Shown here piece after piece: positions 1,869-20,131 of a stretch of 64,000 nucleotides of DNA. How positions within the stretch are numbered: position 1 is the stretch's first letter; every line of letters begins with the position of its first letter. Position numbers and translations under genes: made by a program. The notes beneath the pieces were generated by a model. It was not told the DNA's origin, made no database searches, and was given only the letters and a program-made list of their open reading frames with translations. Source of the DNA: Anaerorhabdus furcosa (GTDB taxonomy: Bacteria; Bacillota_I; Bacilli_A; Erysipelotrichales; Erysipelotrichaceae); contig NZ_FUWY01000001.1 of NCBI RefSeq assembly GCF_900167375.1, forward strand, positions 496,001-560,000, written 5' to 3'.

Positions 1869-2160
1869 CGTTCTGACTTCTTTCCGTATATTCTGCATCA
1901 ATAACATTTCCAGTATTCACTGGTTTTTCAATGTTTGAATCATCTTCTTGTTGATATGGGTTTTGGAATGTTGGTTGTTCATTCGATTGTGATTCATAAT
2001 AGCCTGTTTGATCACTATTTTTAAATGCTTGTTTAGCTTTATAATTGAGGTATGCAAAAATACCCACAATGAATAATCCAAACACTAAGATAAGTGGCCA
2101 GAATATTTGAAATAGTACAATGAATGTAAATACTGTTAGTAAGAAATATATTAGTCTCAT
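1855..2160 (-). CDS. Small membrane protein, unknown function
   Basis: A 101-residue protein I do not recognise. Residues 1-42 form a strongly hydrophobic hairpin (two likely membrane segments), followed by a lysine-containing turn (NYKAKQAFKN) and a polar, Gln/Asn/Glu-rich tail of about 55 residues that is probably cytoplasmic and disordered. It sits 34 bases downstream of whiA in the same direction and overlaps the next gene, so it may belong to the rapZ-yvcK-whiA transcript. It is real by reading-frame overlap and a GGAGGAAAAATA ribosome site. Confidence 0.6.
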   Translation of the reverse strand: MRLIYFLLTVFTFIVLFQIFWPLILVFGLFIVGIFAYLNYKAKQAFKNSDQTGYYESQSNEQPTFQNPYQQEDDSNIEKPVNTGNVIDAEYTERSQNDDRN

Positions 2161-2194
2161 ATTATTTTTCCTCCATTACATTATAATGTACAAA

Positions 2195-3148
2195 TTAGGA
2201 ATGTACACTAGTTTGCATCTTAATTTTGTCAGCTAATTCTTGGATTTTTGTAAATCTGTGCTTCATTCCAGATTTACTCATCACAACTCCTTTTTGTCTT
2301 TCATATTCTTTACTCAGTTCATTTAAACTAAGTTCAGGATTTTCTTTTCTTAGCACAACAATTTCAAGTAATCGCTCATCGAGTTGGTCCAATTTACCAG
2401 CATCCTCAATAATTTGAATATCATCCAATTGTTTTTTTGCAGCATTTTGACTTTTCATTTCATTTGCTACTTCACAATTATCTAAGCGCGTTAAACTGTT
2501 TTTAAAATCACGATGAATACGAATATCCTCAAATTTCATGAGTGATTCAAATGCACCAATAAGTCGTAAAAAGTCTGCAATCTTATCTGCAGCCTTGATA
2601 TAAACTACAATTTGATTTCTTCTTAAAATTGATTTAGCGGGTAATTCAAAGCGATTCATTACTTTAATAATGAATTCTGCATGTTCTTCACTAATTGTAC
2701 CTATTTCCAAATGATAACTTGTTCTTTGTGGTGCATTGACGCTACCCATCGCCATAAAAGCACCTGCAAGATAGGCTCTTGCACAGCACTCTTTTGTAAC
2801 AATACTTTGTAGTGGCCTTGATAGTAATCCTCTTGTTGAATACAATCCCAAATCTTCTAAGATTTCTTTTGCTTTGTTTAATACACGAATGTAATAGATA
2901 TTATTCTTCTTTAAATTCATCTTTTTCATTACCGATAAATCTGTCTCAACACCATAACATTCTTTTAACATTTTCCATGTTCTCTTCGCTGTTGTAGCAT
3001 TTTCAGTTTTAATGAGTAAAGTTAACCCTTTGTTTGATATTGATAAAGTTGAACACAATTGAATTAGCGCTGATAGCTCCGCCTTCTTGCAACAATCTTT
3101 CAATTCATTAAATGCTATTTCTTGTTTTACTTCTGTTGTGAATGACAT
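2195..3148 (-). CDS. whiA: DNA-binding protein WhiA
   Basis: WhiA (317 residues, normal length) has an N-terminal LAGLIDADG-homing-endonuclease-like fold, starting from the characteristic MSFTTEVKQEIA, and a C-terminal helix-turn-helix ending in SKSGMKHRFTKIQELADKI. In Gram-positive bacteria it affects cell division and chromosome segregation; in actinomycetes it is a sporulation regulator. The start at 3148 is preceded by GGAAAA and lies 22 bases inside the yvcK reading frame, so translation is likely coupled. The order rapZ, yvcK, whiA is the conserved Firmicute arrangement and supports the identification. Confidence 0.95.
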   Translation of the reverse strand: MSFTTEVKQEIAFNELKDCCKKAELSALIQLCSTLSISNKGLTLLIKTENATTAKRTWKMLKECYGVETDLSVMKKMNLKKNNIYYIRVLNKAKEILEDLGLYSTRGLLSRPLQSIVTKECCARAYLAGAFMAMGSVNAPQRTSYHLEIGTISEEHAEFIIKVMNRFELPAKSILRRNQIVVYIKAADKIADFLRLIGAFESLMKFEDIRIHRDFKNSLTRLDNCEVANEMKSQNAAKKQLDDIQIIEDAGKLDQLDERLLEIVVLRKENPELSLNELSKEYERQKGVVMSKSGMKHRFTKIQELADKIKMQTSVHS

Positions 3149-4116
3149 GTATTTTCCACATCCTTTAATAAGCTTTCAACCACTGATTTTATTTTCATAC
3201 TATCATGGCGAACCAAATTGTTTGAAAAGTCTAGTAAACTAGCTTCTACAATTTCATAGCTATGTCGTTCTCTTACAATTTTTACTGGTGTACTATCTTC
3301 ATCTTTATATCGTTGTATGATGTAGTCAGGAATAACATCATTGTTCACAACGACTTTATCGACATATGCCCCATGATCAATCAACGCATCAACATGATCC
3401 TCAACTTCATAATTAGTTGTTTCTCCAGGTTGTGTCATCGCATTACAAATATATATTTTTTCACCTTTTGCTTTTTGTAAAGCATCTTTAATTTCTGGAA
3501 TAATAATGTTTGGAAGAATACTTGTATAGACTGAACCAATTCCATAAATAATTAAATCAGCTTCTTTAATTGCATCAATCGCTTTTTCACTTGCACGTAC
3601 TTCATCTTGATAAAAAACACGTTTAATTCGATTGTGAATTCTTGGAATATTATCTTCTCCACGTACAATTGTTCCATCTTCCATAATGGCAAATAGTGTG
3701 ATTACTTGTGAAGTAGAGGGAATAATATTTCCTCTTACATTTAAAACTTTAGATAATATTTCGATACTTTCCACAAAGCTTCCACTTGATTGTGTAAGTG
3801 CTACTAAGATTAAATTACCTAAATTGTGACCAATAATATCTTGTTGTCCTACTACATTATCATCATTTGAAACAAAACGATAATCCATTAATGTACTTAA
3901 TAATGTTTCACTTTCAGCTAATGCTATTAATACCCCACGAATGTCTCCCATTGCAGGCATATTGAAAAATTGTCGAAGTCTTCCTGTTGACCCTCCATCA
4001 TCAGCCACTGTTACAATAGCTGTGATATCAATATCTTCAATGTGTTTTATCCCCCTAAGTATTGTCGATTGTCCATGTCCCCCACCAATCACAACTACTT
4101 TTTTATTTTTCATCAT
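3127..4116 (-). CDS. yvcK: Gluconeogenesis factor YvcK (CofD-like, UDP-sugar binding)
   Basis: A 329-residue CofD/YvcK family protein. The N-terminal VVVIGGGHGQSTILRG nucleotide-binding loop and the TVADDGGSTGRLR motif (about residues 36-50) are family signatures, as is the later GIGSVYTSILPN segment. In Bacillus and Listeria the protein binds UDP-sugars and is needed for growth on gluconeogenic carbon and for cell-wall homeostasis. It overlaps rapZ by 14 bases, with AAGGG placed before the ATG pair, and overlaps whiA by 22 bases. Confidence 0.95.
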   Translation of the reverse strand: MMKNKKVVVIGGGHGQSTILRGIKHIEDIDITAIVTVADDGGSTGRLRQFFNMPAMGDIRGVLIALAESETLLSTLMDYRFVSNDDNVVGQQDIIGHNLGNLILVALTQSSGSFVESIEILSKVLNVRGNIIPSTSQVITLFAIMEDGTIVRGEDNIPRIHNRIKRVFYQDEVRASEKAIDAIKEADLIIYGIGSVYTSILPNIIIPEIKDALQKAKGEKIYICNAMTQPGETTNYEVEDHVDALIDHGAYVDKVVVNNDVIPDYIIQRYKDEDSTPVKIVRERHSYEIVEASLLDFSNNLVRHDSMKIKSVVESLLKDVENTCHSQQK

Positions 4117-4969
4117 TTAAGCCCTTTTTGTCTCTATGTTCTTTGTAACAATTATATTTTTTATGATAAAGTTCATAAAGATAATTTGTAACCGCTACTG
4201 AACGATGTTGTCCCCCTGTACAACCAATCGCTACTGTAAAGTGATTCTTTCCTTCTTTTACATATTCATCAAAGGCATAGTCTAAGAAAGACACAAGTCT
4301 TTTAATGAATTCTTTGGTCTGTTGATTCTCCATGACATAGTCATAGACAACCTTATCATCACCTGAATAAGGTCTTAATTCTTGTACCCAATATGGGTTT
4401 GGTAAAAACCGTACATCCAGCATTAAATCCGCATCCATTGGTACACCATTTTTATATCCAAAAGAAACAAAGCTTATTGAGAATGTAGGTGCTTCTCTTA
4501 ATTTGAAATAATTCTCAATTTTACCTTTTAAACCTTTAAAATCTGTAAAGGTTGTATCAATTGTTACAAATGTATTATCTTTTGAATTCATAAACATTTG
4601 ACGTTCAACATTAATTGCTTCTTCTAATGTATTCACTGTGTTACTTATTAAAAGCGGGTGTGTTCTTCGTGTTGATTTGTAGCGATGCAATAACACATCA
4701 TCTGATGCATCGAGAAACAACACTCTTACATCCATATCGGCACCCTTAAAAGCTCTTAAAAACTCTGGGAAATCAATCGCAGATGTTGCGAGTGCTGTAT
4801 AATCAAAACGCGGATCTGTGCTTGATTCAATCACATCCACAAGGTTAGCAAGAATTTGTACTGGGAATTGGTCGATGCAATGATATCCCATATCTTCAAG
4901 AATATTGGTTGCACTAGTTTTACCAGCTCCTGACATTCCACTAACTAAAATTACTCTTTTTTTATTCAT
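4103..4969 (-). CDS. rapZ: RNase adapter protein RapZ / YvcJ nucleotide-binding protein
   Basis: A 288-residue RapZ/YvcJ family protein. The Walker A motif GMSGAGKT lies at about residues 10-17. The C-terminal domain holds the conserved DVRFLPNPYW, GDDKVVYDYV and IGCTGGQHRSVA segments. In E. coli RapZ delivers the sRNA GlmZ to RNase E; in Bacillus YvcJ is a GTPase linked to competence. Its role here is therefore inferred only at family level. The ATG at 4969 is chosen over the GTG at 4978 because GAGG is 8 bases upstream. It is the first gene of the conserved rapZ-yvcK-whiA operon. Confidence 0.95.
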   Translation of the reverse strand: MNKKRVILVSGMSGAGKTSATNILEDMGYHCIDQFPVQILANLVDVIESSTDPRFDYTALATSAIDFPEFLRAFKGADMDVRVLFLDASDDVLLHRYKSTRRTHPLLISNTVNTLEEAINVERQMFMNSKDNTFVTIDTTFTDFKGLKGKIENYFKLREAPTFSISFVSFGYKNGVPMDADLMLDVRFLPNPYWVQELRPYSGDDKVVYDYVMENQQTKEFIKRLVSFLDYAFDEYVKEGKNHFTVAIGCTGGQHRSVAVTNYLYELYHKKYNCYKEHRDKKGLNDEK

Positions 4970-5096
4970 GGTTTTCACCTCATTTTTATTCTACCACGTA
5001 CCCTGGTGTTTCTCAACGAATACCATAATGTTCACATAATCATTTGATACAATATCTTCTCAAACCTATGATAGACTTAACAAGGAGGATATGTTT

Positions 5097-5807
5097 ATGT
5101 TTTTCTATATTGATTGGTATTATATTTTATTAGTTACCCCCGCAGTTATTTTCTCAATTTGGGCAAGTTCTAGGGTAAATAGCACTTACAAGCGTTACTC
5201 ATCTCAATATTCAAGACGTGGTATTACAGCGGAAGCTGCTTGTCGAAAAGTATTAGATGAAAATGGTTGTGGTAGTGTACAAATTGTACGTGTACAAGGT
5301 CACTTAACTGATCATTATGATCCACGCCAAAATATTATTCGCTTATCCGACGCTGTGTACGGTAGCACTTCTACTGCAGCGATAGGGGTTGCTTGTCATG
5401 AAGCTGGGCATGCAATACAATACGCACAAAATTATGGTCCCATTAAATTTCGTGCTGCCATTGTAAATATAACAAACATTGGTTCTCAATTATCAATCCC
5501 ATTAATTCTATTAGGAATTCTCTTCTCTGCAAGTGGACAAATTTGGGTTAATATTGCTTACATTGGGGTTGCATTGTTTGGACTTTGTGTAGTTTTCCAA
5601 CTCGTTACTCTTCCTACAGAGTACAATGCAAGCCATCGTGCCATAGCCGCTCTTGAAAGCAGTGCTATTTTGGATGCCGATGAAATTGAAGGTTCTAGAA
5701 AAGTATTGAATGCTGCTGCATTAACCTATGTTGCTGCACTATCTGTAACAGTTATGCAATTCTTAAGACTACTTTTATTAGTAGGAAGAAGAGGCAATCG
5801 AGATTAA
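5097..5807 (+). CDS. YugP-type membrane zinc metallopeptidase
   Basis: A 236-residue membrane protein of the neutral zinc metallopeptidase (YugP) family. The catalytic HEAGH motif is at residues 101-105, and the N-terminal membrane segment (residues 3-24) and two to three C-terminal membrane helices match the family layout. It would act at the inner face or within the membrane; its substrates are not known. AAGGAGG ends 2 bases before the ATG at 5091 but 8 bases before the ATG at 5097, so the latter is the start. It is a single gene, closed by a shared terminator. Confidence 0.85.
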   Translation: MFFYIDWYYILLVTPAVIFSIWASSRVNSTYKRYSSQYSRRGITAEAACRKVLDENGCGSVQIVRVQGHLTDHYDPRQNIIRLSDAVYGSTSTAAIGVACHEAGHAIQYAQNYGPIKFRAAIVNITNIGSQLSIPLILLGILFSASGQIWVNIAYIGVALFGLCVVFQLVTLPTEYNASHRAIAALESSAILDADEIEGSRKVLNAAALTYVAALSVTVMQFLRLLLLVGRRGNRD

Positions 5808-5810
5808 AAA

Positions 5811-5838
5811 AATGTGTCAAGCACTTGCTTGGCACATT
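5811..5838. terminator. Bidirectional terminator between convergent genes
   Basis: A 12-bp stem with one G-T pair (AATGTGTCAAGC / GCTTGGCACATT) and a 4-base loop, flanked by A-run on the left and T-run on the right, sits between the stops of 5097-5807 (+) and 5841-7163 (-). Confidence 0.85.
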
Positions 5839-5840
5839 TA

Positions 5841-7163
5841 TTATTTTTCATGTTCAATTTCAACACTGTGATGATAAGTTTGTTTCGATATGACAATCGA
5901 ATTTTTTAAACGATATTGTTCATTGAGGTAATCATAATATGATCCAGGTGACATAATACCATTTGGATTTGCAGCAGCAATTCCAGTAGCACGAATTACA
6001 TAGTCTGATAGTTTTACACAATTTGTGGTTAGAACGAAATATGTTTTGAAACTTGTGTCCTTAAATTTATACATTGATGCATGAGTTGCTTTATATAATT
6101 CACTTGCATAGTCATTTGGAACTGTTTCACTTTGATATTTACCTTCTTCATATTTTTGATACAAACTTTCCCATGGATACACATGTGTAAATAACTCACT
6201 CAAGCGATCTCTAATTGCTTGTTTTTGTTTGTCCGTTAAACTTAAACCAAATGCAAAAATTGAATCTCCTGTAGCCTTAGCACAGAACTTGATATATTCA
6301 TCACGATTGTTGGCTGTAAATAAGACACCATCTCCAATAGAACCAAAGAGTTTTGTTGATTGAAAATCATAATTTCCATAACAATATACTTTACCCTCAA
6401 AATATAAATCTGCATGGCCTATTGTTCCAAATCCTTTTTCTGTAACGTGCACAAAAATTTCAATGTCAGGTATTTTATCTACTTTAAAGCTATCTTCTTC
6501 AATTACTCCATCATCATCAACCGCAACGAGGTTGTTGATGTAACTAATTGCTTTTTTTGGCATCAACATTGTCATGAAGACTGGCAAATTAACACGAATT
6601 CTTTTTTTGAAACGATTTGTTTGTTTAATTGGTGCTACCTCTACTATAAAATCTCCTAACAAAGAGAACCCATAAAATATACAGAAGATTCCTGTAATTA
6701 AAAATGCTCTTCTTTGATTTATTCCTGGTGCAAATAACAAAGGTAATGCAAATAAGTAAATCACAATTGCACTAAGCAAAACCATGCTTCTTCCAGGAGT
6801 TTTATTCGATCTTTGGATTACATAGTCAATCGTTTTTACAATCGCAATAATTAAAATATAAATTCCTAAAAACAAAGCGTAGAGCGTTGAGAATTGATTA
6901 ATAAAGGCAAGGATTGTAATCCCAAAGACAATCGGCATCACACCACGGATAACTTTTGAAAAACTAAAGTTATTTAAACATCCCAAAAGCCCTGTAATCC
7001 CCATAACCATTGAATATCCAAAGATAATAAGTCGTACAATTTTAGGTATTTCTGTTTTCCAAATCAAAAATGAAATACCCGATATAATATAGAGCAAAGC
7101 TGTAAACCCCAAAGAGCCTACTCCAATATATTGACGCACCAATTTTCCTTCTATTTTTTCCAT
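5841..7163 (-). CDS. Membrane protein with possible permuted papain-like C-terminal domain
   Basis: A 440-residue protein in two parts. Residues 1-190 contain about six membrane helices arranged like DUF308/HdeD-type proteins. The C-terminal part (about 215-440) is soluble. It contains a His in GTIGHADLYFEGKVYCYGN and, roughly 140 residues later, a Cys in LTTNCVKLSDYVIRA. His before Cys in this spacing, with GHADLYF like the GHvgiy strand, resembles circularly permuted NlpC/P60 (YiiX-like) amidases. That assignment is inference from motif shape. The ATG at 7163 is preferred (GAGGAG upstream, 10 bases away) over the longer frame starting at 7226. Confidence 0.55.
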   Translation of the reverse strand: MEKIEGKLVRQYIGVGSLGFTALLYIISGISFLIWKTEIPKIVRLIIFGYSMVMGITGLLGCLNNFSFSKVIRGVMPIVFGITILAFINQFSTLYALFLGIYILIIAIVKTIDYVIQRSNKTPGRSMVLLSAIVIYLFALPLLFAPGINQRRAFLITGIFCIFYGFSLLGDFIVEVAPIKQTNRFKKRIRVNLPVFMTMLMPKKAISYINNLVAVDDDGVIEEDSFKVDKIPDIEIFVHVTEKGFGTIGHADLYFEGKVYCYGNYDFQSTKLFGSIGDGVLFTANNRDEYIKFCAKATGDSIFAFGLSLTDKQKQAIRDRLSELFTHVYPWESLYQKYEEGKYQSETVPNDYASELYKATHASMYKFKDTSFKTYFVLTTNCVKLSDYVIRATGIAAANPNGIMSPGSYYDYLNEQYRLKNSIVISKQTYHHSVEIEHEK

Positions 7164-8897: not shown

Positions 8898-9740
8898 TTA
8901 TTCTAAATTACTATCTTTAAATTCTTCAAAGTGTTTGAAACAATACTTCGCTACCCCCGATTCTTCATTTGAGGTAGTGATTGTATCCGCAATTAATTTT
9001 AATTCAATGCATGCATTTTCCATTGCTACTTTGATTCCCGCATTTTGAAGTAAGGTAACATCATTATTCGCATCTCCAAACGCAACTACATCTTTACAAT
9101 TCACATCAAGACGTTCACATAACCACTTTAGCGCATTGCCCTTTGATGCTTTTTTGTTCATAACTTCTATATTAGTTTTAAGTGATGACGATGTTGTTAG
9201 TTCAGAGAATTGCTTTATAATCTCAATTACTTTACGTTTGGTATCTTCATCTTTATAAAAAATATTCAAACGATCTATTTGTGGGCATGATCGTATAAAT
9301 TGAATCATGTCACTCTCTACAACTTTTCTACTTGATACTACATAATGATAAATTCCTTGATCTAAATTAAACTCATGAAGTCGATCCATTACACTTTTTT
9401 GTGTATATACTTCATTATCTGAAAAAATATCAAAAGTAATATCAAAATGGTTTAACTTGTTGTATAAGTCAATAACCAAGTTGTTCGAAAGTCCACAAAA
9501 GAATAATTCTTTTTTATCTTTAACACTATAGATAGATGAACCATTTCCACAGATTGCATACAAAACACTTGGGTGGTTAATAATTTCATGACTCATCCCA
9601 GACAAAAGTCTTCCTGATGCAGGTATAAATAAAATATTATTTTGATGACACTTTTCTAATAACTCATGATTTTCTTGAGATATTTTTTTATCTTCTGTAA
9701 GAAAAGTTCCATCTAAATCTGATACAATCATTTTCAACAT
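8898..9740 (-). CDS. Cof-type HAD-IIB phosphatase
   Basis: A 280-residue Cof/YidA-like HAD hydrolase. Motif I is VSDLDGTFL (nucleophile Asp8), the sugar-phosphatase cap spans the middle, and motif IV is VAFGDANNDVTLLQ near residues 213-225. These enzymes dephosphorylate sugar phosphates or nucleotides. The gene follows the IlvD/Edd-type dehydratase by a single base, so it is almost certainly the last gene of the PTS/KDPG operon. It could relieve build-up of a phosphorylated intermediate of that pathway; this is inference from position. Confidence 0.88.
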   Translation of the reverse strand: MLKMIVSDLDGTFLTEDKKISQENHELLEKCHQNNILFIPASGRLLSGMSHEIINHPSVLYAICGNGSSIYSVKDKKELFFCGLSNNLVIDLYNKLNHFDITFDIFSDNEVYTQKSVMDRLHEFNLDQGIYHYVVSSRKVVESDMIQFIRSCPQIDRLNIFYKDEDTKRKVIEIIKQFSELTTSSSLKTNIEVMNKKASKGNALKWLCERLDVNCKDVVAFGDANNDVTLLQNAGIKVAMENACIELKLIADTITTSNEESGVAKYCFKHFEEFKDSNLE

Positions 9741-9741
9741 A

Positions 9742-11376
9742 CTATTTAAGTATTGCTCCTTCTTTTGCAGAATTTACCAATTTTGCATAACGTCCAAGTA
9801 AACCTTTTTCTTGTTGATGGCTAAATGTTTTTTTCATCCTTATTCTATTTTGTATCTCTTCGTCTGTTAAATCAACAGAAATTTTATTTTGCGCCAAATC
9901 AACCTGTATTTTATCGCCATCTTCAATGATTGATATTGGACCATCTTCGGCAGCTTCAGGGCATAGATAGCCTATACTCAAACCACCAGAGGCACCTGAA
10001 AATCTACCATCGGTGATAATAGCTGTATTGGGAATAGCTTTCATAACTTCTGTAATACGATGAAGTTCTTTCATACCAGGACCACCTTTTGGCCCCTCAT
10101 ATCGAACGATTAATGCATCTCCTGATTGTATTAACTTCTTATTGAATGCTTCAAAACATTCTTCCTCAGAATTAAATACTTTTGCAACACCCTCAAATTG
10201 ATGCAATTCAGTAGGTACTGCACTTGTTTTTACCAATGCTCCCTCTGGTGCTAAGTTACCATATAAAACTTGGATTCCATTAGCAACTGATTTTTCATCA
10301 TCAACCGTCCTTATTATATTTCGATCCACATCTATTTTTTTACTCAATTCTTCTTTTATTGTCTTCCCTGTTACAGTTAGACAATCTGTATCTAAGAACT
10401 GTTCAACTGATTTCATAATTGCAGGTACTCCTCCTGCTTTGTACAAATCAACACAAGTTAAATTTCCATTTGGAACAATATTGCAAATAACTGGAACTCG
10501 ACTTGTTGTATCTGCAAAGTCTTTCCATTCAAGTTTTAAATTCAATTCATGTGCTAACGCTGGCAAATGAATCAGTGCATTCAAAGAGCCTCCAATTGCG
10601 CTCAAAACAGTTACTGCATTGTTTAGTGCATCTTGTGTCATGATTTGGGAAGGGGTAATGCCATTTCTTACAAGATTCATCAATGCAATCCCACTATCTC
10701 TAGCGCTAAAACGTCTCATACTTGTTGAACTTGGAATGAGTGATCCATAAGGTAGCATCATTCCTAACGCCTCACATAAGCAGCCCATTGTATTGGCAGT
10801 GCCTAAGAAAGGACAAATACCAGGCCCTGTATAATATTTTAATGTTCCTTCAATAACTTCTCGTTCGCTTATTTCACCTCGAAGAAATTTTTGTCTTAAT
10901 TCTTTTGATTCATTCGGTTTGATTTCTGCATAGCATGGACCTGATGTTACAAGTATACTTGGAAGATTTATTCGAGCTGCTGCATTGAGCATTGCAGGAA
11001 CAATCTTATCGCATGCTGCTAAATAGACAACACCATCAAACACACCTTCTCCAACAATCATTGCTTCACAAGAATCAGTAATAATTTCACGATGAGGAAG
11101 ACAATATCGCATTCCTGAATGTCCTTGAGCTATACCATCACACATTGCAATTGTATTGAACTCAACTGGTTCGCCACCTGCTTCTAAGATTCCTTTTTTT
11201 ACTTCTTCTGCTAATTTTCTTAGAGGTTCGTGTCCTGGACAAATTTCATTCCAACTATTCGCAATTGCTATTAATGGTTTCTCATTAAGAGCATCAATTG
11301 ATACTCCTGCAGCTGCTAGATGTGCTTTTGATATTGCTTTTTGAAATGGTTCTAATTTATCAATTGCTCTTTTCAT
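9742..11376 (-). CDS. IlvD/Edd-family dehydratase, probably sugar-acid specific
   Basis: A 544-residue iron-sulfur dehydratase. The three cluster cysteines are visible at Cys46 (NEICPGHE), Cys122 (AACDKIVPAM, with the carbamylated-lysine position Lys124) and Cys188 (GPGICPFLGTANTM); Asp80 (MCDGIAQGH) is a metal ligand. Sequence length fits dihydroxyacid dehydratase, but the third-cysteine motif contains GTAN as in sugar-acid dehydratases. There are no branched-chain biosynthesis genes nearby, and a KDPG aldolase and PTS lie in the same operon. I infer that it converts a phosphorylated or free aldonate into a 2-keto-3-deoxy acid. True IlvD activity cannot be excluded. Confidence 0.85.
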   Translation of the reverse strand: MKRAIDKLEPFQKAISKAHLAAAGVSIDALNEKPLIAIANSWNEICPGHEPLRKLAEEVKKGILEAGGEPVEFNTIAMCDGIAQGHSGMRYCLPHREIITDSCEAMIVGEGVFDGVVYLAACDKIVPAMLNAAARINLPSILVTSGPCYAEIKPNESKELRQKFLRGEISEREVIEGTLKYYTGPGICPFLGTANTMGCLCEALGMMLPYGSLIPSSTSMRRFSARDSGIALMNLVRNGITPSQIMTQDALNNAVTVLSAIGGSLNALIHLPALAHELNLKLEWKDFADTTSRVPVICNIVPNGNLTCVDLYKAGGVPAIMKSVEQFLDTDCLTVTGKTIKEELSKKIDVDRNIIRTVDDEKSVANGIQVLYGNLAPEGALVKTSAVPTELHQFEGVAKVFNSEEECFEAFNKKLIQSGDALIVRYEGPKGGPGMKELHRITEVMKAIPNTAIITDGRFSGASGGLSIGYLCPEAAEDGPISIIEDGDKIQVDLAQNKISVDLTDEEIQNRIRMKKTFSHQQEKGLLGRYAKLVNSAKEGAILK

Positions 11377-11400
11377 ATGTTCTCCTTTTTCAAATAGATA

Positions 11401-11420
11401 AAGAGGATTTTCACCCTCTT
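11401..11420 (-). terminator. Weak intra-operon hairpin before the dehydratase
   Basis: A 6-bp stem AAGAGG/CCTCTT with an 8-base loop and a T-rich tail lies between the EIIC stop and the dehydratase start. It may attenuate or trim the downstream part of the operon. Confidence 0.35.
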
Positions 11421-11424
11421 TTAA

Positions 11425-12777
11425 TTATTCTTCAGTTTGTGCTACTTTCTTCTTTTTACTCATAAAGAACCATACGATTCCAAAGACAAGTAGAAGTACT
11501 GGTATAGATATCATTGGGTTCTTTGTAAATGCTTCAAACACTAAGAAACTTTCAGTCAGTGCTGTTGCTGCAAACGAAGCGATACCACCATCAAATTGTA
11601 ATCCTACTGATGTAGCAAGAGCTGTAAGAACTGGTGATGTAATTGTTCCTGCTAATAAAACTGCTGCCATTGTAACTAATCCTATAATAATACTTCTAAA
11701 TAAATTACCTTTACAAATTGCAACAACAAGAGCAACACGGAATGTTAATACTGCAAGATCTGCAAATGGTAACACACGGTTTCCTGGAAGAATAACTGCT
11801 AATGCAATAACAAGTGGAGTTAAAATTAGAGAAGTTGTAATAACATTTTCATTACCAACAACAACTGCTGCATCTAAACCAATAAATAATTTTCTTCCTT
11901 TGAATCTTGATTGAGTGAATTTTTTTGCTGCTTCAGAAATCGGCATTAACCCTTCCATAAATAATGAAGTCATCTTTGGAATCAATACCATGACTGCTGC
12001 CATGTTAACACCTAAATTAAATGATTGAGCAAGATCATATTTTGCTAATAAACCAATCCCAACACCTAAGATAATACCTAGCATCATTGGTTCTCCAAAG
12101 AATCCTAAATATTTTTTAGCACTTGAAATAGAGAAATCAATTTTATTGATTACTGGAATTCTATCAATTAACCAGTTCATTGGTGCTGCAATAATAACTG
12201 ATGATACTGCTGATACTGTTGGCAAGGATACATCCGGTATCCCAAAATATTTTTCAACGAGTGGTTGTGTCCAGTCAGATAATTTAAATGTTACAACTGC
12301 CATTACTGCAGATGCTCCCATTGCTAAGAACACACTGTTCGTTGAGAAGTACACCATAATCCCAACAATTGCCATGTGGTGGTAATTCCAAATATCCACA
12401 TCCATTGTATCTGTTAACTTAAAAGTAAGCATAACAATGTTAATAAATAAAATTTCAAATACTAGAATAGCGATAATTGGTGATGCCCAAGTTACTGATG
12501 CAATTGCACCCCACCCAACATCAATAATATCTAGATTAATTCCAAAGTTTTGAACCATTGCTTGTGCCGCTGGTCCAATATTACTTTTTAATAAATTTAC
12601 AACTAAGTTAATACCTGCAAAACCAATTGCAATTGTTACCCCAGACTTAAATGCTTTTGAAAATTTTACACCAAATATTAATCCAATTAATGTGATGATT
12701 ATTGGTAGCATAACTAGTGATCCTGCATTTAAGATTGTTTGGAACCCTGCATAGATTATATCTAAAATTGCTTCCAT
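11425..12777 (-). CDS. PTS galactitol-type EIIC permease
   Basis: A 450-residue polytopic protein of the galactitol (GatC) PTS permease family, with about ten or more membrane segments. The cytoplasmic segment KFTQSRFKGRKLFIGLDAAVVVGNENVI is the part most like GatC proteins. It carries the sugar across the membrane and presents it to EIIB for phosphorylation. The gene is 22 bases downstream of EIIB in the order EIIA-EIIB-EIIC. The family includes galactitol, arabitol and sugar-acid transporters; the aldolase and dehydratase in the operon suggest a sugar acid rather than a polyol. Confidence 0.9.
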   Translation of the reverse strand: MEAILDIIYAGFQTILNAGSLVMLPIIITLIGLIFGVKFSKAFKSGVTIAIGFAGINLVVNLLKSNIGPAAQAMVQNFGINLDIIDVGWGAIASVTWASPIIAILVFEILFINIVMLTFKLTDTMDVDIWNYHHMAIVGIMVYFSTNSVFLAMGASAVMAVVTFKLSDWTQPLVEKYFGIPDVSLPTVSAVSSVIIAAPMNWLIDRIPVINKIDFSISSAKKYLGFFGEPMMLGIILGVGIGLLAKYDLAQSFNLGVNMAAVMVLIPKMTSLFMEGLMPISEAAKKFTQSRFKGRKLFIGLDAAVVVGNENVITTSLILTPLVIALAVILPGNRVLPFADLAVLTFRVALVVAICKGNLFRSIIIGLVTMAAVLLAGTITSPVLTALATSVGLQFDGGIASFAATALTESFLVFEAFTKNPMISIPVLLLVFGIVWFFMSKKKKVAQTEE

Positions 12778-12799
12778 TTTTGTCTATCTCCCTTTTTCC

Positions 12800-13078
12800 T
12801 TATTTCAAATGACTTACAATATTTTCTAATGTTTCTTCTTCATTAATTCCTGTTAGTAATGCAATAGCACCCACAACTGGAATATTAATATCATCATTAG
12901 AATATTTACCTGTAGTGACTAGTAAATCAAAATCTGATGCTTTTGATTCAACTTCTAAAAGTTTACATTGTACTACATTTACAGCAATACCTTCAGCTTC
13001 ACATTTATCTTTGATTTTGCTAGCGACTACTGTTGATGTTGCAACACCATTTCCACATGCGATTAAAATTCTTTTCAT
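12800..13078 (-). CDS. PTS galactitol-type EIIB component
   Basis: A 92-residue EIIB of the lactose/galactitol-like fold. The phosphocysteine is Cys8 in ILIACGNGVATSTVV, the P-loop-like signature of GatB proteins. It accepts phosphate from the neighbouring EIIA and passes it to the imported substrate. The ATG has a GGAGAGAG ribosome site and the gene is 18 bases downstream of EIIA. Confidence 0.93.
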   Translation of the reverse strand: MKRILIACGNGVATSTVVASKIKDKCEAEGIAVNVVQCKLLEVESKASDFDLLVTTGKYSNDDINIPVVGAIALLTGINEEETLENIVSHLK

Positions 13079-13096
13079 TTTCTCTCTCCTTTTCCG

Positions 13097-13552
13097 TTAA
13101 ATTAACTTATCTTTAGTCAAGTCAAAGACTATTTTCGGATCATTTGTCATTGTGATCTTCGATAATATATCCTGATCTTGAATCAAAGCAATAATTTTTT
13201 GTAACATTTCAATATGTCCATGTGGCTCAGTAAGGGCCATCATAATCACCATAGATACTTTAATATTTGTATCGGGATCATCCATTTTCGCAAATTCTAC
13301 TGGATGTTTTAAAACCCCAACGCACAAAGCTGCTTCATTCACATTTGCAATATCACAATGAGGGATTGCTACATTGATTCCTTCTGTATCAATACCTGTA
13401 GGATATGTTTTTTCTCTTTCCAAAATTGCATTTAAATAGGTATCCTTAACCAATTTCTTACTTTCTAGAAGTTTTGCCATTTTTTGAAGAACTTCTTCTT
13501 TAGGTAATTCTTCTTCAATTACTATGATTTGTGATTCATTATAGTTTGTCAT
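13097..13552 (-). CDS. PTS fructose/galactitol-type EIIA component
   Basis: A 151-residue PTS EIIA of the fructose/mannitol/Ntr class. The phosphohistidine is His65 in NVAIPHCDIANVNE. It takes phosphate from HPr and phosphorylates EIIB. The gene lies 4 bases after the KDPG aldolase stop, in a tight operon. Confidence 0.92.
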   Translation of the reverse strand: MTNYNESQIIVIEEELPKEEVLQKMAKLLESKKLVKDTYLNAILEREKTYPTGIDTEGINVAIPHCDIANVNEAALCVGVLKHPVEFAKMDDPDTNIKVSMVIMMALTEPHGHIEMLQKIIALIQDQDILSKITMTNDPKIVFDLTKDKLI

Positions 13553-13556
13553 TCAT

Positions 13557-14186
13557 CTACTCTCCCCAATTCATTTTTGATTCGAAATATTCAATTTGTT
13601 TCTTTAATTCTTCTTCATTGCATTCAATAATATCTTGTTTATTGAATATCCCTGATCCAATACCTGCATAGCTTGCACCTGCTTGTAAAAATTCACTAAC
13701 ATTCTCACAATTAATTCCACCTACTACCATGATGGGCATAACCCCAAGTGGCGCAAATATATCTTGGATATATTTTGAACCTAAACGAGCTGCTGGAAAT
13801 ATTTTTACAATGTCTGCACCGTCTTCAAATGATTGTTTAATTTCAGTAGGTGAAAATGCGCCTGGTACTGTAACCACATGATGGGCTTTACAATAATCTA
13901 ATATTTCTTTACTTAACATGGTTGGTGATAGGATGAATTTTACTTTTGCATCAATGCATTGCTTAACTTGCTCTAGTGTTAAAACTGTTCCTGCACCAAC
14001 TAAGATTTGACCACCAAATTCATCAACAATCTTCCGAATCATATCAATTGCACCTTCAGAATTCATCGTAATTTCAACAGAACGTAATCTTGTTCCAACC
14101 ATCGACTTAACAACAGCACGAACACTTTCATAGTTATATCCTCTTAAAATTACAGTAACTTTAGGGAAATCTAAAATCTCTGTCAT
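13557..14186 (-). CDS. eda: KDPG / KHG aldolase (Eda-type)
   Basis: A 209-residue class I aldolase. Glu38 in RSVEITMNS and the Schiff-base Lys128 in DGADIVKIFPAARLG match the active site of 2-keto-3-deoxy-6-phosphogluconate aldolase, and the phosphate site is GAGT plus VGGIN. It cleaves KDPG (or an epimer such as KDPGal) to pyruvate and glyceraldehyde 3-phosphate. The frame is open upstream to 14258, but AAGGGGG lies 9 bases before the ATG at 14186. That Shine-Dalgarno is inside a long hairpin (14190-14234), which suggests translational control. Confidence 0.92.
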   Translation of the reverse strand: MTEILDFPKVTVILRGYNYESVRAVVKSMVGTRLRSVEITMNSEGAIDMIRKIVDEFGGQILVGAGTVLTLEQVKQCIDAKVKFILSPTMLSKEILDYCKAHHVVTVPGAFSPTEIKQSFEDGADIVKIFPAARLGSKYIQDIFAPLGVMPIMVVGGINCENVSEFLQAGASYAGIGSGIFNKQDIIECNEEELKKQIEYFESKMNWGE

Positions 14187-14189
14187 ATA

Positions 14190-14234
14190 AAAGTCCCCCT
14201 TCGCTATTAGTATATGTGCGAAGAGGGACCTTTC
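14190..14234 (-). promoter_or_regulatory. Intercistronic hairpin that covers the aldolase ribosome site
   Basis: Plus-strand arms AAAAGTCCCCCTTCGC (14190-14205) and GCGAAGAGGGACCTTT (14219-14234) pair over 16 positions with two mismatches and a 13-base loop. In the transcript the AAGGGGG Shine-Dalgarno of eda is within the 3' arm, only a few bases from the ATG. It could be an RNA-processing stabiliser, a translational switch or an attenuator. Confidence 0.65.
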
Positions 14235-14250
14235 ATTGTCCAATACTGTA

Positions 14251-17064
14251 TTATCCAAAGAATTTTTTAAATATTTCTTTTTCTGATTTACACGCTTTTA
14301 ATAACTCCATAAATTCAGGCTCTTTAATGTGTTGATATAACTCTTCAAAGGCTGTTCTATGGCTTTCATCTATCGCAATCGTGAAGATAAAGTCGACCAT
14401 ATTATCTCCATCCCAACAGATTGGTTTGTCTAATTTTGTGATATGAATGACTGATTTTGTAACAAATTTTGTTTCTCCATGAGGAATTGCCATGTTTCCT
14501 TTTAAATATGTTGGCAAAAATGCTTCTCTTTTATAAACACTTAGTAAAAAAGATTCTGTTACATAACCATCCATCGATAATTTTTTAACAATTTTATCCA
14601 ATATTTCCTCTTTACTAACTTTGCTGTGTTCAATTAGAATACAATCTTCATGCAATACATCTTCCAGTGGATTATAGAAATTTGTATTATTAATAACCAA
14701 ATTCTTTAATCGCTCCAATCCTTCTCTTTGATGAATCTCTTCTGCTGAGAAGAATGGTAAATCAATTACATTGGGATTGATTGTTCCAACACACGCAACA
14801 AGATCATATTCTTTTGATAGCATATTAATCTTGTCTTGAATCTTCGACTCATCAACATACCCAATATGCAACCACTCCAACTTCTTAAATACTGTTTCGA
14901 ATTGATGACGAATGTAATTCTCTAAGTGAATCGCTGCTCCTTCTCCTGTTATGCAACATGTAAGTATAGCTGGCTTTTTTGATTTTGGTGAATTTTGATT
15001 TTCATAAATGTTCATTGTTTCTTTGGAATCAATGGATGTTAAAATCTCATCCAATGAGTCTTGAGTCCACAATGTTTTTCGCATGCATTCAATTACCAAA
15101 AGTGTGTCTGTTCTTCCCAACACGCCTACATGAATATCCAAAGTTTCTTCAATCTTCGCTCTTACCTGAAGCAAAGAACCCATATCCGCTAAGATAATCG
15201 TTCCTTTCCCTTCATCAATTTGTTTTACTTTAGCAATGACTTTATCACACATAATCTTTGGTGTATCTTCATATTCTAAATCTAATCCATGAGCGTGATT
15301 TTCACCTAAAATAACATTAGCTGCTTCTGCCATTGCTGTTGCAACATGACCATGCGATACCACTAACACCGCAATTCGTTTTGAGTCTACATTGTAGTTG
15401 CTTTGAAACTTTTGAAAGTAAATTGCCAAATAACCTGCTTCTTCATTCAAATGAGGAATTTTTACTTTTGTGGACAAATTCTCTAAGATATTTCTTGCGA
15501 CAAAAAATTCTTTTGGACAGTTATCTTTAATTTGTTTCAATTCACTTGATACATGTTGTTTTGTTGATTGTCGATCTTTCAACATTTTCAAATGAACTGC
15601 GAGTGGGAAAACAATTGCTTCATTTAAAAATGGTAATTCCAATTTCGCTCTTTCATAAATTGATTGTGATAAGTTCAATATTTCCTCGCCTGCTATTATT
15701 GATATTTCTTCTCTAGAAAGTTTATTTTTTTGAACATCACGGATTTGTTGTAGAAGACTAATTTCAATTTCCTCTGATAATTGTTTTTCAACTTCCAAAC
15801 TAGGAAGCCCTGCTTGTTTTAATTCTGAGAATCTCTTTTCTAGTTTGCTGTAATTATCCCAACTATCATTTATTTTTGTACGTGAAAAAACTTTCTCTTC
15901 TTTTGAAATGAAGACCAAATCTCCTCTTATCCATGTGTTAACATCTTTTTCAACTTGTACTCTTTGATTTATAAAGGTTTCGCTTAAAAATCTTGATTCT
16001 ATGATTAACTCTTTTTTCTCAGTAACTTTACTTTCAACAAACGCTTTTGCACAAGCTATCTTAACCTCCGCAAATAACTGTCGCATATTCTCGGCATAAT
16101 CTTGGCTTGCTAAAGCAATCAATACATCTCTTTTAACAGTGATATCCAATTTCATTTGTTGACTTTCAAGCATAAAAGCTTGTTTTATGAATTCTATTCT
16201 TTCTAGAAGAGATCGCTCAATAAATCTCGGCATTTCTATTTTCATCGCAAAATGACGCAATACTTCTTTACTGACTGTTGATGATGCCTTTGCATGAATA
16301 CTTGCAATAATAAGCGCTTTACTCGTTCGTATTGTTAAATTATCATTTAGTCTAGTCAACTGTCTTTTATCAAGATATCGATACAATGACTCTAATCCCT
16401 GTGGTGGAAAGAATTCAATGTTCTTGATATACACAAAATTCAATTCTTCTTGTTCTATACAACCTTTTTGAGATTCTTTACCAAATAAAAACTCTAGCAA
16501 ATCAAGAGGTCTTTCTAAGTAATCAATGCAATCAACTTCATAAACATAAACTGTTTTATCTTGATTAAGTGACTTCGCATACTCCGCCATCGCATAGACA
16601 ATAATACTTCTTCCACTACCAAACCCACCTGATAAACAACAATGCAATCCAAAGGGAGGATAACTAACTGCTGCCACAACTTGTTGAATTACATTTTTAA
16701 GCGATCCTTTTTCTCCTAATATATGACTAAAAGAATTTCCCGAATCATTTGATTTTGGTTCTTTTATTTTTAATTCCGATCTTATTTTGGCTACTACATA
16801 TTTACCAACAACAAATTGGGAATCATTTAAACATTTAGTTAATGCGCGATCTGATAAGGTTGCATCTTTAGCTAGATATTCTTGTATTACTCTAACCAAT
16901 TCATTTTTTCTTCTTTCTCTTGAATCAGGTATTTTTAATTCTTTTCTAATTCTTGTTACAACCTCACGGGAAAGATCTAATTTATCTGCAATATTTTCAT
17001 CAGTAAACGGATTTTTTTTATCTTCAATTTCAATACAATGATTAATTTCGTTTTTAATATTCAC
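14251..17064 (-). CDS. LevR-like PTS regulator with RpoN-box-like N-terminus and degenerate AAA+ domain
   Basis: A 937-residue regulator. Residues 5-55 and 57-102 are two helix-turn-helix units of the form sD.-IA..L...R.VV..iR.eLkI, resembling the C-terminal DNA-binding domain and RpoN box of sigma-54. Residues 117-345 align by eye with the AAA+ domain of LevR-type activators (GEKGSLK, YPPFGLH, FPPQGLESLYRYLDK). However, Walker A reads GGFGSGRS (Lys to Arg152), Walker B reads VYIKN (no Asp-Glu), and the GAFTGA loop is absent. Next come a PRD (His491, His538), an EIIA-Man-like domain (VVSHGHVATAMA, His571/573), an EIIB-Gat-like segment (Cys703/704) and an EIIA-Fru-like domain (IPHGET, His862). 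It likely senses PTS phosphorylation and controls the operon it heads. The start is a GTG with GGGGTG upstream. A TATAAT at 17095-17100 suggests a vegetative promoter. Confidence 0.85.
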   Translation of the reverse strand: MNIKNEINHCIEIEDKKNPFTDENIADKLDLSREVVTRIRKELKIPDSRERRKNELVRVIQEYLAKDATLSDRALTKCLNDSQFVVGKYVVAKIRSELKIKEPKSNDSGNSFSHILGEKGSLKNVIQQVVAAVSYPPFGLHCCLSGGFGSGRSIIVYAMAEYAKSLNQDKTVYVYEVDCIDYLERPLDLLEFLFGKESQKGCIEQEELNFVYIKNIEFFPPQGLESLYRYLDKRQLTRLNDNLTIRTSKALIIASIHAKASSTVSKEVLRHFAMKIEMPRFIERSLLERIEFIKQAFMLESQQMKLDITVKRDVLIALASQDYAENMRQLFAEVKIACAKAFVESKVTEKKELIIESRFLSETFINQRVQVEKDVNTWIRGDLVFISKEEKVFSRTKINDSWDNYSKLEKRFSELKQAGLPSLEVEKQLSEEIEISLLQQIRDVQKNKLSREEISIIAGEEILNLSQSIYERAKLELPFLNEAIVFPLAVHLKMLKDRQSTKQHVSSELKQIKDNCPKEFFVARNILENLSTKVKIPHLNEEAGYLAIYFQKFQSNYNVDSKRIAVLVVSHGHVATAMAEAANVILGENHAHGLDLEYEDTPKIMCDKVIAKVKQIDEGKGTIILADMGSLLQVRAKIEETLDIHVGVLGRTDTLLVIECMRKTLWTQDSLDEILTSIDSKETMNIYENQNSPKSKKPAILTCCITGEGAAIHLENYIRHQFETVFKKLEWLHIGYVDESKIQDKINMLSKEYDLVACVGTINPNVIDLPFFSAEEIHQREGLERLKNLVINNTNFYNPLEDVLHEDCILIEHSKVSKEEILDKIVKKLSMDGYVTESFLLSVYKREAFLPTYLKGNMAIPHGETKFVTKSVIHITKLDKPICWDGDNMVDFIFTIAIDESHRTAFEELYQHIKEPEFMELLKACKSEKEIFKKFFG

Positions 17065-17107: not shown

Positions 17108-17140
17108 AATAAAAGAAAACCACTTCTAATTTTGAAGTGG
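17108..17140 (-). terminator. Terminator of the pfl operon
   Basis: The arms CCACTTC and GAAGTGG overlap the pflA stop codon and are followed on the minus strand by TTTTCTTTTATT. It separates pflA from the PTS operon promoter. Confidence 0.8.
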
Positions 17141-17842
17141 TTCATTATTATACCATTGTTCGATTCTTACTATATCTTCATTTGTTGCATCCGGTATATC
17201 AATGTATGGATAAGCAATATTTAATTCTTCATACTTAGAATCACACAGGGATCGATAAGGCAGGAAGTCTACCTTTTCTATGCATGTATATCCTTGAAGT
17301 AAGTCTTTCAGTTGCCTTGTTTCTTCTTGCGTATCATTGATTGTCGGTATAACAACATGACGAATCCATGTCTTGCATTGAATCTTTTCAAGATATTGTA
17401 AAAATTCCAGAGTTTGTTTTAAGGAACCTTTTGCAAAAGCATCATACTTTTCTTCTGTGGTCATTTTAACATCCAATAAAACTAAATCCGTGTACTTAAT
17501 TAGTTCTTTGACATCATCATTTAATACACATCCACTAGTATCAAGTGCAGTGTGTAAATTTAGTTTATGACATTCTTTAAATAATTCTGTAACGAATTGT
17601 GATTGAAGTAATGCTTCTCCACCACTACAAGTTACACCTCCATTTTTATAGAAGGTAATTCCTTTTTTAATTTTATCAATAACTTCTTCAATACTTATTT
17701 CAATGCCATTTTCAAATTCCCATGTTTCCGGGTTATGACAACATTTGCATCGAAGCGGGCATCCTTGCATAAAAATAACTGCACGGATGCCAGGTCCATC
17801 ACTCGTTGAGAAGGAATGAAATGAATTTATTCTACCCATCAT
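17126..17842 (-). CDS. pflA: Pyruvate formate-lyase activating enzyme (radical SAM)
   Basis: A 238-residue radical SAM enzyme. The cluster-binding CX3CX2C is in [15 protein letters not shown], preceded by the PflA-typical [15 protein letters not shown]. It abstracts a hydrogen from the glycine of PflB to create the glycyl radical, using S-adenosylmethionine and reduced flavodoxin or ferredoxin. Its ATG overlaps the pflB stop (ATGA), and there is no clear Shine-Dalgarno, so translation probably depends on termination-reinitiation after pflB. Confidence 0.96.
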
Positions 17843-20070
17843 AATGTTGTATGGAATGTACGTTGAATTACTTCTTTTTGTTGTTCACGAGATAAGCGAT
17901 GAAAATTTACAGCATAACCGGATACACGTATTGTAAGATTAGGATATTTATCTGGATTCTCATAAGCATCCATAAGTTGTTCCTTGTTTAATACATTCAC
18001 ATTTAAGTGATGTGCATTTTGGATAAAGTATCCATCCATTAAGTTCACCAAGTTAACTATTCTCTCTTCTTCCTTAGATCCCAATGAGTTTGGAACAATT
18101 GAGAACGTGTTTGATATTCCATCACGACATGCATCATATGGAATCTTTGCCACACTGTTTAATGCAGCAATTGCTCCATTTGTTTCTCTATTGTGCATTG
18201 GATTTGCACCAGGTGCAAAAGCTTCTCCTGCTTTTCTACCATCAGGTGTAGCACCTGTTTTCTTACCATAAACTACATTCGATGTAATTGTAAGAACTGA
18301 TAATGTATGAATTGATTTACGATATGTTTTATGTTTTCTTAACTCTGTAATAAATTTTTCTACTAATTCTTTAGCGATAAAATCGACACGGTCATCATCA
18401 TTACCATATTTAGGGAAATCACCTTCAATTGTAAAATCTTCAATGATTCCATTTTCACCTAAAACTGGTGTTACCTTAGCATATTTAATTGCACTTAATG
18501 AATCCGCAATTACAGAAATTCCTGCAACACCAAATGCCATGAAGCGTTCTACTTCAGTATCATGCAATGCCATTTGTGTTTTTTCATATGCATATTTATC
18601 ATGCATATAGTGGATGATATTCATTGTATTTACATACAAACCAGCAAGCCAAGACATGTATGAATCTAAACGGCTAACTACTTCTTCATAACGAAGTGGT
18701 TGCCCATTCGCAAGTGAATCCATTTTAGGTCCTAGTTCAACACCTTTTTTCTCTTCGATTCCACCATTGAGCGCAAGTAGTAATAATTTAGGCAAATTAC
18801 ATCTAGCACCAAAAAATTGCATTTGCTTACCTATCTTCATAGCCGATACACAACATGCGATTGCATAATCATCACCATAAATTGGACGCATCACATCATC
18901 ATTTTCATATTGAATAGAATCTGTAAGAATTGATATTTTACTACAGAAGTTTTTAAATCCTACTGGTAATTTCTGAGACCATAAAATTGTTAAATTTGGT
19001 TCAGGAGCTGAGCCTAGATTAATGAGTGTATGCAACATTCGAAAACTAGACTTTGTTACTAAACTCTTACCCTCAAGTGAAATACCACCTAATACCTCGG
19101 TAATCCACATTGGATCTCCACCAAATAGTTCATTATAATCAGGTGTTCTTAAATGACGAGCTAATCGCAATTTAATAACAAATTGATCCATTAACTCTTG
19201 TGCTTCTTCTTCAGTAAGTGTCCCCTCTTCGATATCTCTTTCAAAATAAATATCAAAGAATGTACTAACTCTACCTAATGACATTGCAGCACCATTTTGT
19301 TCTTTTATTGCACCAAGATAACCAAAATATGTCCATTGGATAGCTTCTTTTGCATTTTGTGCTGGTTTAGAAATATCATATCCATGCATTTGAGCCATCT
19401 CTTTAAGTTTACCTAAGAATGTAATTTGTTGATATAACTCTTCCAATTGACGAATTTCATCTTGCCCTAGACTTACTTGTCCTAAAGCATTTTTGTCTTT
19501 TTTCTTCTCTTCAATTAATTTATCAATACCATATAACGCTACTCTACGATAGTCTCCAATGATTCTTCCTCTACCATAAGCATCAGGTAATCCTGTAATA
19601 AGACCTACTTTACGAGCAGCTCTCATTTCATCTGTATATGCTCTAAAAACTCCATCATTGTGAGTTGTTTTATATTTGAATTGTTCTTCTATTGTATCGG
19701 ATAACTTATAACCATATGCTTCAACTGCACTTCTAGCCATACGAATACCACCAAATGGATTAACGCCACGCTTTAGTGGTTCATCTGTTTGTAACCCAAC
19801 AATAAGTTCTAATTCTTTATCAATATAACCTGGTTCATAATTTGTTAATGAAGTAATTACTTCTGTATCTACACTTAAAACCCCATTGTTTTCGTGTTCT
19901 TTTTTTAACAATGAGTTAACTTCTTCCATTAATTTATTTGTGCGTGCTGTTGCATCTTTTAAGAATTGATCATCTCCAGTATATTCTTTGTAATTGGAAA
20001 TTATAAAATCTCTTACATCAATGCTTTCTTGCCATTTATTTCCTTTAAACTCACGGTATGCATTTGTCAT
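17839..20070 (-). CDS. pflB: Formate acetyltransferase (pyruvate formate-lyase)
   Basis: A glycyl-radical enzyme of 743 residues, converting pyruvate and CoA to acetyl-CoA and formate under anaerobic conditions. The catalytic cysteine pair is in [11 protein letters not shown] and the radical glycine in [19 protein letters not shown] near the C-terminus. The ATG at 20070 has AGGAGGG 8 bases upstream. The longer frame to 20115 runs into the leader's terminator hairpin and is rejected. The gene is followed directly by pflA and preceded by a riboswitch-like leader. Confidence 0.97.
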
Positions 20071-20097
20071 AAACTTTACCCTCCTATGCACTAGTAT

Positions 20098-20131
20098 AAA
20101 CAAAAGGCAATTCAAAAGAAATTGAATTGCC
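20098..20131 (-). terminator. Leader terminator of pflB (expression platform)
   Basis: A perfect 10-bp stem GGCAATTCAA/TTGAATTGCC followed by TTTTGTTT on the minus strand. Its 5' arm overlaps the conserved CTGGGCA of the upstream riboswitch candidate, so ligand binding would compete with terminator formation. Confidence 0.85.

Follow-up and report, generated by a model that had tools for sequence, protein, structure and literature searches.

The stretch of Anaerorhabdus furcosa DNA analyzed here (the window, 64,000 nucleotides) carries, between positions 8898 and 17064 of its minus strand, a run of seven genes with short gaps, their families confirmed by Pfam and NCBIfam searches: a LevR-like regulator, a KDPG/KDPGal-fold aldolase, the EIIA, EIIB and EIIC of a phosphotransferase system (PTS), an IlvD/Edd-fold dehydratase and a HAD phosphatase. 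A sequence-only reading had described this seven-gene minus-strand run, and each of its genes was recovered; the range it gave, 9742-17064, holds six of them and leaves the HAD gene outside. The genes, and the element at the upstream end of the unit, are:

8898-9740, minus strand: Cof-type HAD-IIB phosphatase, final gene of the run (PF08282, 186 bits; TIGR00099, 164 bits against a cut-off of 137)
9742-11376, minus strand: dehydratase with IlvD/Edd fold, in a clade of its own (DHT), proposed to act on 6-phospho-D-galactonate (PF00920 and PF24877)
11425-12777, minus strand: EIIC of the galactitol family (PF03611, 279 bits; TIGR00827, 403 bits, below the cut-off of 542)
12800-13078, minus strand: EIIB of galactitol type, with its Cys in MKRILIACGNG (PF02302; NF007643, 65.8 bits against a cut-off of 95)
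13097-13552, minus strand: EIIA of fructose/galactitol type, with its His in AIPHCD (PF00359, 110 bits, and sequence)
13557-14186, minus strand: KDPG/KDPGal-fold aldolase with DgoA-type residues (PF01081 and residue table)
14251-17064, minus strand: LevR-like regulator (Pfam, alignment with 15 homologues, match to PDB 2o8k, model of residues 1-400)
17117-17143, minus strand: terminator-like hairpin 3′ of pflA, upstream end of the unit (10-pair stem and T tail)

The HAD gene starts 1 base past the dehydratase stop. Translation of the aldolase most likely begins with the ATG at 14186; this codon comes with a Shine-Dalgarno sequence and replaces the TTG at 14258 given by the ORF caller. Directly upstream of the run lie genes for pyruvate formate-lyase and its activating enzyme (17126-20115), from which the terminator-like hairpin after pflA separates it; they were rejected as members of the module, a PFL or PflA homologue being found near the dehydratase in 0 of the 46 loci described below. 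A stem-loop at 11400-11421 lies within the 48-nt gap between the EIIC and dehydratase genes. Elsewhere in the window, a T-box leader (43877-44079, minus strand) stands immediately before a methionine--tRNA ligase gene (41917-43839). The PTS belongs to the galactitol family, with an EIIC-GAT family protein (PF03611), an EIIB (PF02302) and an EIIA (PF00359), but is not a galactitol PTS proper, as both its EIIC and its EIIB score below the respective cut-offs of TIGR00827 and NF007643.

A contig scan found 46 loci with a dehydratase 65-77% identical to that of the window, in Clostridia/Lachnospiraceae, Atopobiaceae/Coriobacteriaceae and Longibaculum muris. By tblastn, 42 of these loci encode both EIIC and EIIB, 42 the aldolase and 41 EIIA, and in 39/46 the aldolase, EIIA and EIIC genes share the strand of the dehydratase. 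As a control, 28 ilvD loci of relatives (1.5 kb flanks) gave no match to any other protein of the operon. The gene order, whose conservation had been suggested as a check of the sequence-only reading, is conserved beyond chance. Two loci (L053 and L058) are on short contigs that end before the aldolase, a third (L050) has the PTS and aldolase on the strand opposite the dehydratase, and four (L064, L066, L068 and L070) have no PTS, showing that the dehydratase can occur apart from the module. L068 and L070 are basal members of the DHT clade with ABC transporter genes nearby, and in L070 a class II aldolase-family gene is close to the dehydratase. A HAD homologue lies near the dehydratase on the same strand in 24/46 loci, and an HTH-type gene on the opposite strand in 13. 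The LevR-like regulator is present in the clostridial loci and in L. muris. In Olsenella, a 336-aa upstream gene resembled a repressor by its length and proved to be a 2-hydroxyacid dehydrogenase.

The aldolase keeps the equivalents of E45 and K133 (the Glu and the Schiff-base Lys), which places it among class I KDPG/KDPGal aldolases. At the sites of Eda R49 and T161 it has Asn and Val, as does Escherichia coli DgoA, and the same pair is found in 39/41 readable aldolases of the related loci. The two exceptions (L064 and L066) have Arg and Thr as in Eda and come from loci without a PTS. The V154/T161 site is reported to affect the stereoselectivity between KDPG and KDPGal (PMC4915726). The Asn/Val pair is a minority state without being unique to the operon: it occurs in 8/66 other PF01081 rows of relatives, from a sample enlarged by 36 stretches, or 7/62 distinct places once four places counted twice are merged, and in these aldolases Asn and Val always occurred together. 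No Asn/Val aldolase outside the operon was present in a best-scoring sample (27/30 rows readable), a biased selection. One of the non-operon Asn/Val aldolases lies in the window genome itself, adjoining a different PTS. This second PTS-aldolase operon (C9:123900-136300; L179, about 2128-6572) has as neighbors of the aldolase a regulator that appears by eye to be of PRD type, an EIIA and an EIIC that by eye is of another type.

The neighborhoods of these aldolases were searched for DgoD. A homologue stands beside the Asn/Val aldolase in 2/7 non-operon neighborhoods (L181 and L185) and is missing from the other five, as it is from the three neighborhoods of the window genome's Thr/Ser aldolases. 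L181 (genome G037) reads aldolase, EIIA, EIIB, EIIC, DgoD (51% identical to E. coli DgoD) and a lactonase-like protein, with no IlvD-type dehydratase. Among the 46 dehydratase loci, six with operons of Olsenella type also encode a DgoD homologue (L044-L047, L076 and L062), that of L044 scoring 621 bits (cut-off 311); five of the six (L044-L047 and L076) have the gene set of L181 plus the DHT dehydratase. The pairing with DgoD and the composition of L181 support D-galactonate as the substrate, with an IlvD-fold enzyme that would stand in for DgoD.

We consider it probable that the run encodes a kinase-free, PTS-fed route for an aldonate of galacto configuration, with D-galactonate the likeliest, combined with a rewired regulation. 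From gene content, gene order, the dehydratase clade, the aldolase residues and the association with DgoD, all of them seen in the sequences, we infer what each enzyme does, which acid is used and what induces the operon. EIIA, EIIB and EIIC would bring the acid into the cell as its 6-phosphate, the dehydratase would take water from C2-C3 to give 2-keto-3-deoxy-6-phosphogalactonate (KDPGal), and the aldolase would split this into pyruvate and glyceraldehyde-3-phosphate. The favored, predicted route is 6-phospho-D-galactonate to KDPGal to pyruvate and glyceraldehyde-3-phosphate. The sequence-only reading, an aldonate taken up as its phosphate, dehydrated directly and cleaved by a KDPG-type aldolase without a kinase, fits everything tested; the regulator's loss of the sigma-54 motif and the hairpin, both described below, go beyond what it had noticed. 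Of the substrates it named, galactonate is favored over gluconate, given the DgoA-type aldolase residues and the pairing with DgoD in related loci; its 'Entner-Doudoroff route' is kept as a phosphorylated route and would be better called a phosphorylated De Ley-Doudoroff route. Against this explanation we count the Asn/Val pair not being unique and having DgoD nearby in just 2/7 non-operon neighborhoods, the loci where DgoD and the dehydratase coexist, the loci without a PTS and an EIIC far below the galactitol cut-off, as well as the presence of sigma-54 in the window genome and a hairpin (see below) known from two species only.

The loci with both enzymes leave room for a second acid or a lactone, since DgoD and the dehydratase occurring together in six of them may mean that the two act on different acids. 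Another hexonate or lactone (talonate, gulonate, idonate or galactono-1,4-lactone) yielding the same or a similar 2-keto-3-deoxy product, or a pentonate, would also agree with the phosphotriesterase-family protein, related to phospho-furanose lactonases, of 5/46 loci (102 bits, below the cut-off of 630), and with the 2-hydroxyacid dehydrogenase genes carried on the dehydratase strand in 24/46 loci, in Coriobacteriia, which hint at 2-keto-acids. The window operon has no such gene by Pfam. Moreover, the IlvD/Edd family is known for a C2/C3 configuration of its substrates that gluconate and galactonate share, and we regard this alternative as unlikely.

A little less likely still is D-gluconate, for which the PTS would deliver 6-phosphogluconate to a non-orthologous Edd and a KDPG aldolase in a true phosphorylated Entner-Doudoroff route. 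The dehydratase scored 300 bits against TIGR01196 (edd), whose cut-off is 708. In a tree of 55 rows, taking in 22/47 dehydratases of the DHT clade, this clade was well supported (99/99) and apart from IlvD (100/95), from Edd and from a third group, X. At 76 positions that distinguish Edd from IlvD (80% conservation), the window enzyme is IlvD-like at 32, Edd-like at 19 and has a residue of its own at 25; the Edd side of this count comprises six rows, including E. coli, three of eight plasmid Edd rows (L125, L126 and L128) having been dropped. The 19 Edd-diagnostic residues speak for gluconate, and terms for a gluconate PTS do occur in 13 papers listed by a literature search, several of these papers being on Enterococcus. 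Set against these are the aldolase residues, which are of DgoA and not of Eda type, and the DgoD homologues that go with the module in related loci.

The second part of the explanation that we consider probable, the rewired regulation, concerns the regulator and the DNA around its 3′ end, where the following elements were found:

14189-14233, minus strand: hairpin with a 16-bp stem and a 13-nt loop, its 3′ arm containing the Shine-Dalgarno sequence of the aldolase gene (MFE -26.2 kcal/mol, z -6.98)
14235-14249, minus strand: a third enhancer-like element, degenerate (4 mismatches to the consensus, read by eye)
14425-14439, minus strand: enhancer-like element ACAAAATTAGACAAA, in the regulator 3′ end (1 mismatch to the family consensus; rare codon GAC kept)
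14446-14460, minus strand: enhancer-like element ACAAAATCAGTCATT, 21 bp upstream of the ACAAAATTAGACAAA element (2 mismatches; rare codon GTC kept)

The regulator is composed of RpoN-box-like DNA-binding repeats, a degenerate AAA+ domain without GAFTGA, a PRD, an EIIA-Man and an EIIA-Fru domain; the PRD and EIIA domains following AAA+ (Pfam) make it a LevR-like PRD/PTS regulator. Its N-terminus resembles the sigma-54 DNA-binding domain (PF04552, E 3e-10; PDB 2o8k, E 4.9e-4), a second RpoN-box-like repeat follows by eye, and residues 1-100 are modeled as helices (pLDDT 79-94 per block). The model of residues 1-400 matches the AAA+ folds of sigma-54 activators. In 14/14 clostridial regulator rows, Walker A, Walker B and GAFTGA/GSFTGA are all intact. 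The regulators of the window and of L. muris (L034) have neither the GAFTGA loop nor Walker B and, judged by the loop, do not qualify as sigma-54 activators; the window protein additionally lacks the Walker A lysine.

A -24/-12 promoter (TGGCAY-N5-TTGCT, at most 1 mismatch) precedes the aldolase in 15/15 clostridial loci that have one, 59-70 nt before a conserved FPKVT peptide; the search was anchored on this peptide, the aldolase starts of the ORF caller being wrong in L037 and L074. These clostridial versions look like sigma-54 operons under a LevR-like activator. Before the window aldolase, the best match within 180 nt has 4 mismatches, and we rejected a sigma-54 promoter in the gap between regulator and aldolase; the best match in L034 has 5, and the 10 coriobacterial loci where the FPKVT peptide was found have 3-4. 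Scanning the whole window with up to 2 mismatches allowed yielded 29 matches where 23.2 were expected, which is uninformative.

In place of the clostridial promoter, the window has the hairpin at 14189-14233, which 0/200 shuffles equaled. Its counterpart in L034 has a 14-bp stem, a 13-nt loop and a z of -5.73; 14/14 inner pairs hold in both sequences, 5 of them changed on both sides. The pairing score was reached by 16/500 shuffles and slid versions had at most 1, making a shared hairpin, from two sequences, suggestive only. The motif TANNNT is at the same position in both loops, so that transcripts starting there would have a leader lacking the 5′ arm. We propose that the hairpin prevents read-through transcripts coming from the regulator gene from being translated.

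The regulator 3′ end has two elements resembling ACAAAATCAGWCAAA, spaced by 21 bp. Searching with up to 3 mismatches and considering the best four matches per locus, we found at least one copy in 14/16 regulators and, among the matches listed, both in 10. In the nine of 15 regulators matched by the peptide pattern used for the codon comparison, GTC and GAC are kept in 9/9, although these codons make up 11% and 12% of their synonyms in the window gene, and TTA is kept in 8/9 despite its rarity in the GC-rich genes among them; further peaks of codon conservation exist elsewhere in the regulator gene. Rare codons kept within the elements point to selection on the DNA, and the window retains both putative sites.

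Taken with these elements, the loss of the sigma-54 loop, Walker B and the Walker A lysine from a regulator that keeps its PTS-sensing and DNA-binding domains suggests that this protein has come to activate or repress a sigma-A promoter. It could instead still be a sigma-54 activator working at a distant promoter, the hairpin being merely a terminator or an mRNA-stability element; the window genome does have rpoN, and a short T-rich stretch follows the hairpin stem. We hold this to be improbable, given the absence of GAFTGA and the loss of Walker B, and two further observations argue against it. First, another, intact LevR-like activator with GAYTGA adjoins rpoN in the window genome, where a perfect -24/-12 promoter precedes a mannose-type EIIB gene (named by eye). 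Second, no rpoN was found in L. muris (G098), where PF04552 matched only the regulator itself. The region with rpoN, the intact activator and the perfect promoter (C3, 235630-239693) is possibly the only remaining sigma-54 operon of the window genome; the genome-wide -24/-12 pattern gave 5 sites against 2 for a reversed control, so some of the sites may be due to chance.

Compared with IlvD, the dehydratase scored 548.8 bits against TIGR00110 (ilvD), below the cut-off of 618.15. Curated ilvD families are nevertheless its best NCBIfam matches, and IlvD-type structures came first in a fold search. The model of the dehydratase (mean pLDDT 70) is too low in confidence for a reading of the active site. 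Among the 145 genomes searched, 67 hold an IlvD-family protein at E ≤ 1e-80, but the window's type was found in just one other, that of L. muris (77% identical), the remaining matches being at most 45% identical. In the window genome the dehydratase is the sole IlvD/Edd protein, and no credible IlvC was found, the single KARI_N match having 20.9 bits (cut-off 20.6); with no second IlvD/Edd protein and so low a match, a role in branched-chain synthesis is very unlikely. That the enzyme serves branched-chain amino acids and lies beside a galactitol PTS by chance, as its best family and fold matches might suggest, is extremely improbable and was rejected in view of the missed ilvD cut-off, the separate clade, the lack of a credible ilvC, the ordinary IlvD that L. 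muris has in addition (44% identical) and the gene order kept in 39/46 loci. The sequence-only reading had likewise assigned it another role, a claim supported by the same score, clade, lone IlvD/Edd protein and missing ilvC.

Among known systems, the proposed route resembles E. coli dgo (DgoT, DgoD, DgoK and DgoA; De Ley-Doudoroff), with which it shares the galactonate-type steps, the DgoA residue pair and, in related loci, DgoD. There, the free acid is imported, dehydrated and then phosphorylated by DgoK, whereas here the PTS would phosphorylate first, with no kinase, and the IlvD-fold dehydratase would take the place that DgoD has in L181. The Edd-Eda Entner-Doudoroff pathway likewise runs from a 6-phospho-aldonate over a 2-keto-3-deoxy-6-phosphate to pyruvate and glyceraldehyde-3-phosphate, and its dehydratase shares some residues with ours; unlike Edd and Eda, the window dehydratase does not reach the edd cut-off and does not fall in the Edd clade, and the aldolase is not of Eda type. 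GatABC has EIIC, EIIB and EIIA of the same families, but the run is without genes of the tagatose-phosphate pathway and scores below the galactitol cut-offs. In the dga system of Salmonella, a PTS makes the phosphorylated acid, one lyase converts it to a 2-keto-3-deoxy phosphate and an aldolase cleaves this, under a LevR-type regulator, much as proposed here. That system combines a mannose-family PTS with a PLP ammonia-lyase, whereas the window has a galactitol-family PTS and an Fe-S-type dehydratase. The glucosaminate-6-phosphate ammonia-lyase of the Salmonella D-glucosaminate PTS system is treated in PMC9529869.

The order AAA+, PRD and EIIA is also that of LevR-type sigma-54 activators, and the relatives without GAFTGA described in PMC3162934 (TyrR, DhaR and HupR) are precedents for its loss with a change of sigma factor; in comparison, the DNA-binding part here consists of RpoN-box-like repeats and the loss affects a PTS-sensing, LevR-like protein. 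A literature search by title or abstract start, with subscription papers and supplements outside its scope, found no description of this operon, and the main text of the sigma-54 regulon reconstruction for Clostridiales (PMC6615313) does not contain galactitol, aldolase or gluconate.

Our broadest proposal is tentative, and we put it at slightly below even: a new IlvD-fold family of 6-phospho-D-galactonate dehydratases would, in Bacillota and Coriobacteriia of the gut, feed a De Ley-Doudoroff route driven by a PTS, and in the order of the window organism the sigma-54 activator would have been rewired, keeping PTS sensors, RpoN-box-like domain and enhancer sites while sigma-54 became dispensable, with a hairpin in the place of the promoter at the aldolase start. 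If annotated by their best matches, these genes would be named 'ilvD' and 'galactitol PTS'. If the proposal is true, a sugar-acid pathway of Lachnospiraceae, Atopobiaceae and their relatives is hidden behind 'dihydroxy-acid dehydratase' and 'galactitol PTS', and metabolic models that rely on these names would include reactions the bacteria do not have and overlook a carbon source that they do use. Phosphorylation during uptake would also do without the extra kinase step that E. coli needs for galactonate. The regulators, again if this is true, would form a natural experiment on an activator that outlives its sigma factor, in a series from an intact activator and promoter, through one decoupled with sigma-54 still in the genome, to one decoupled without it.
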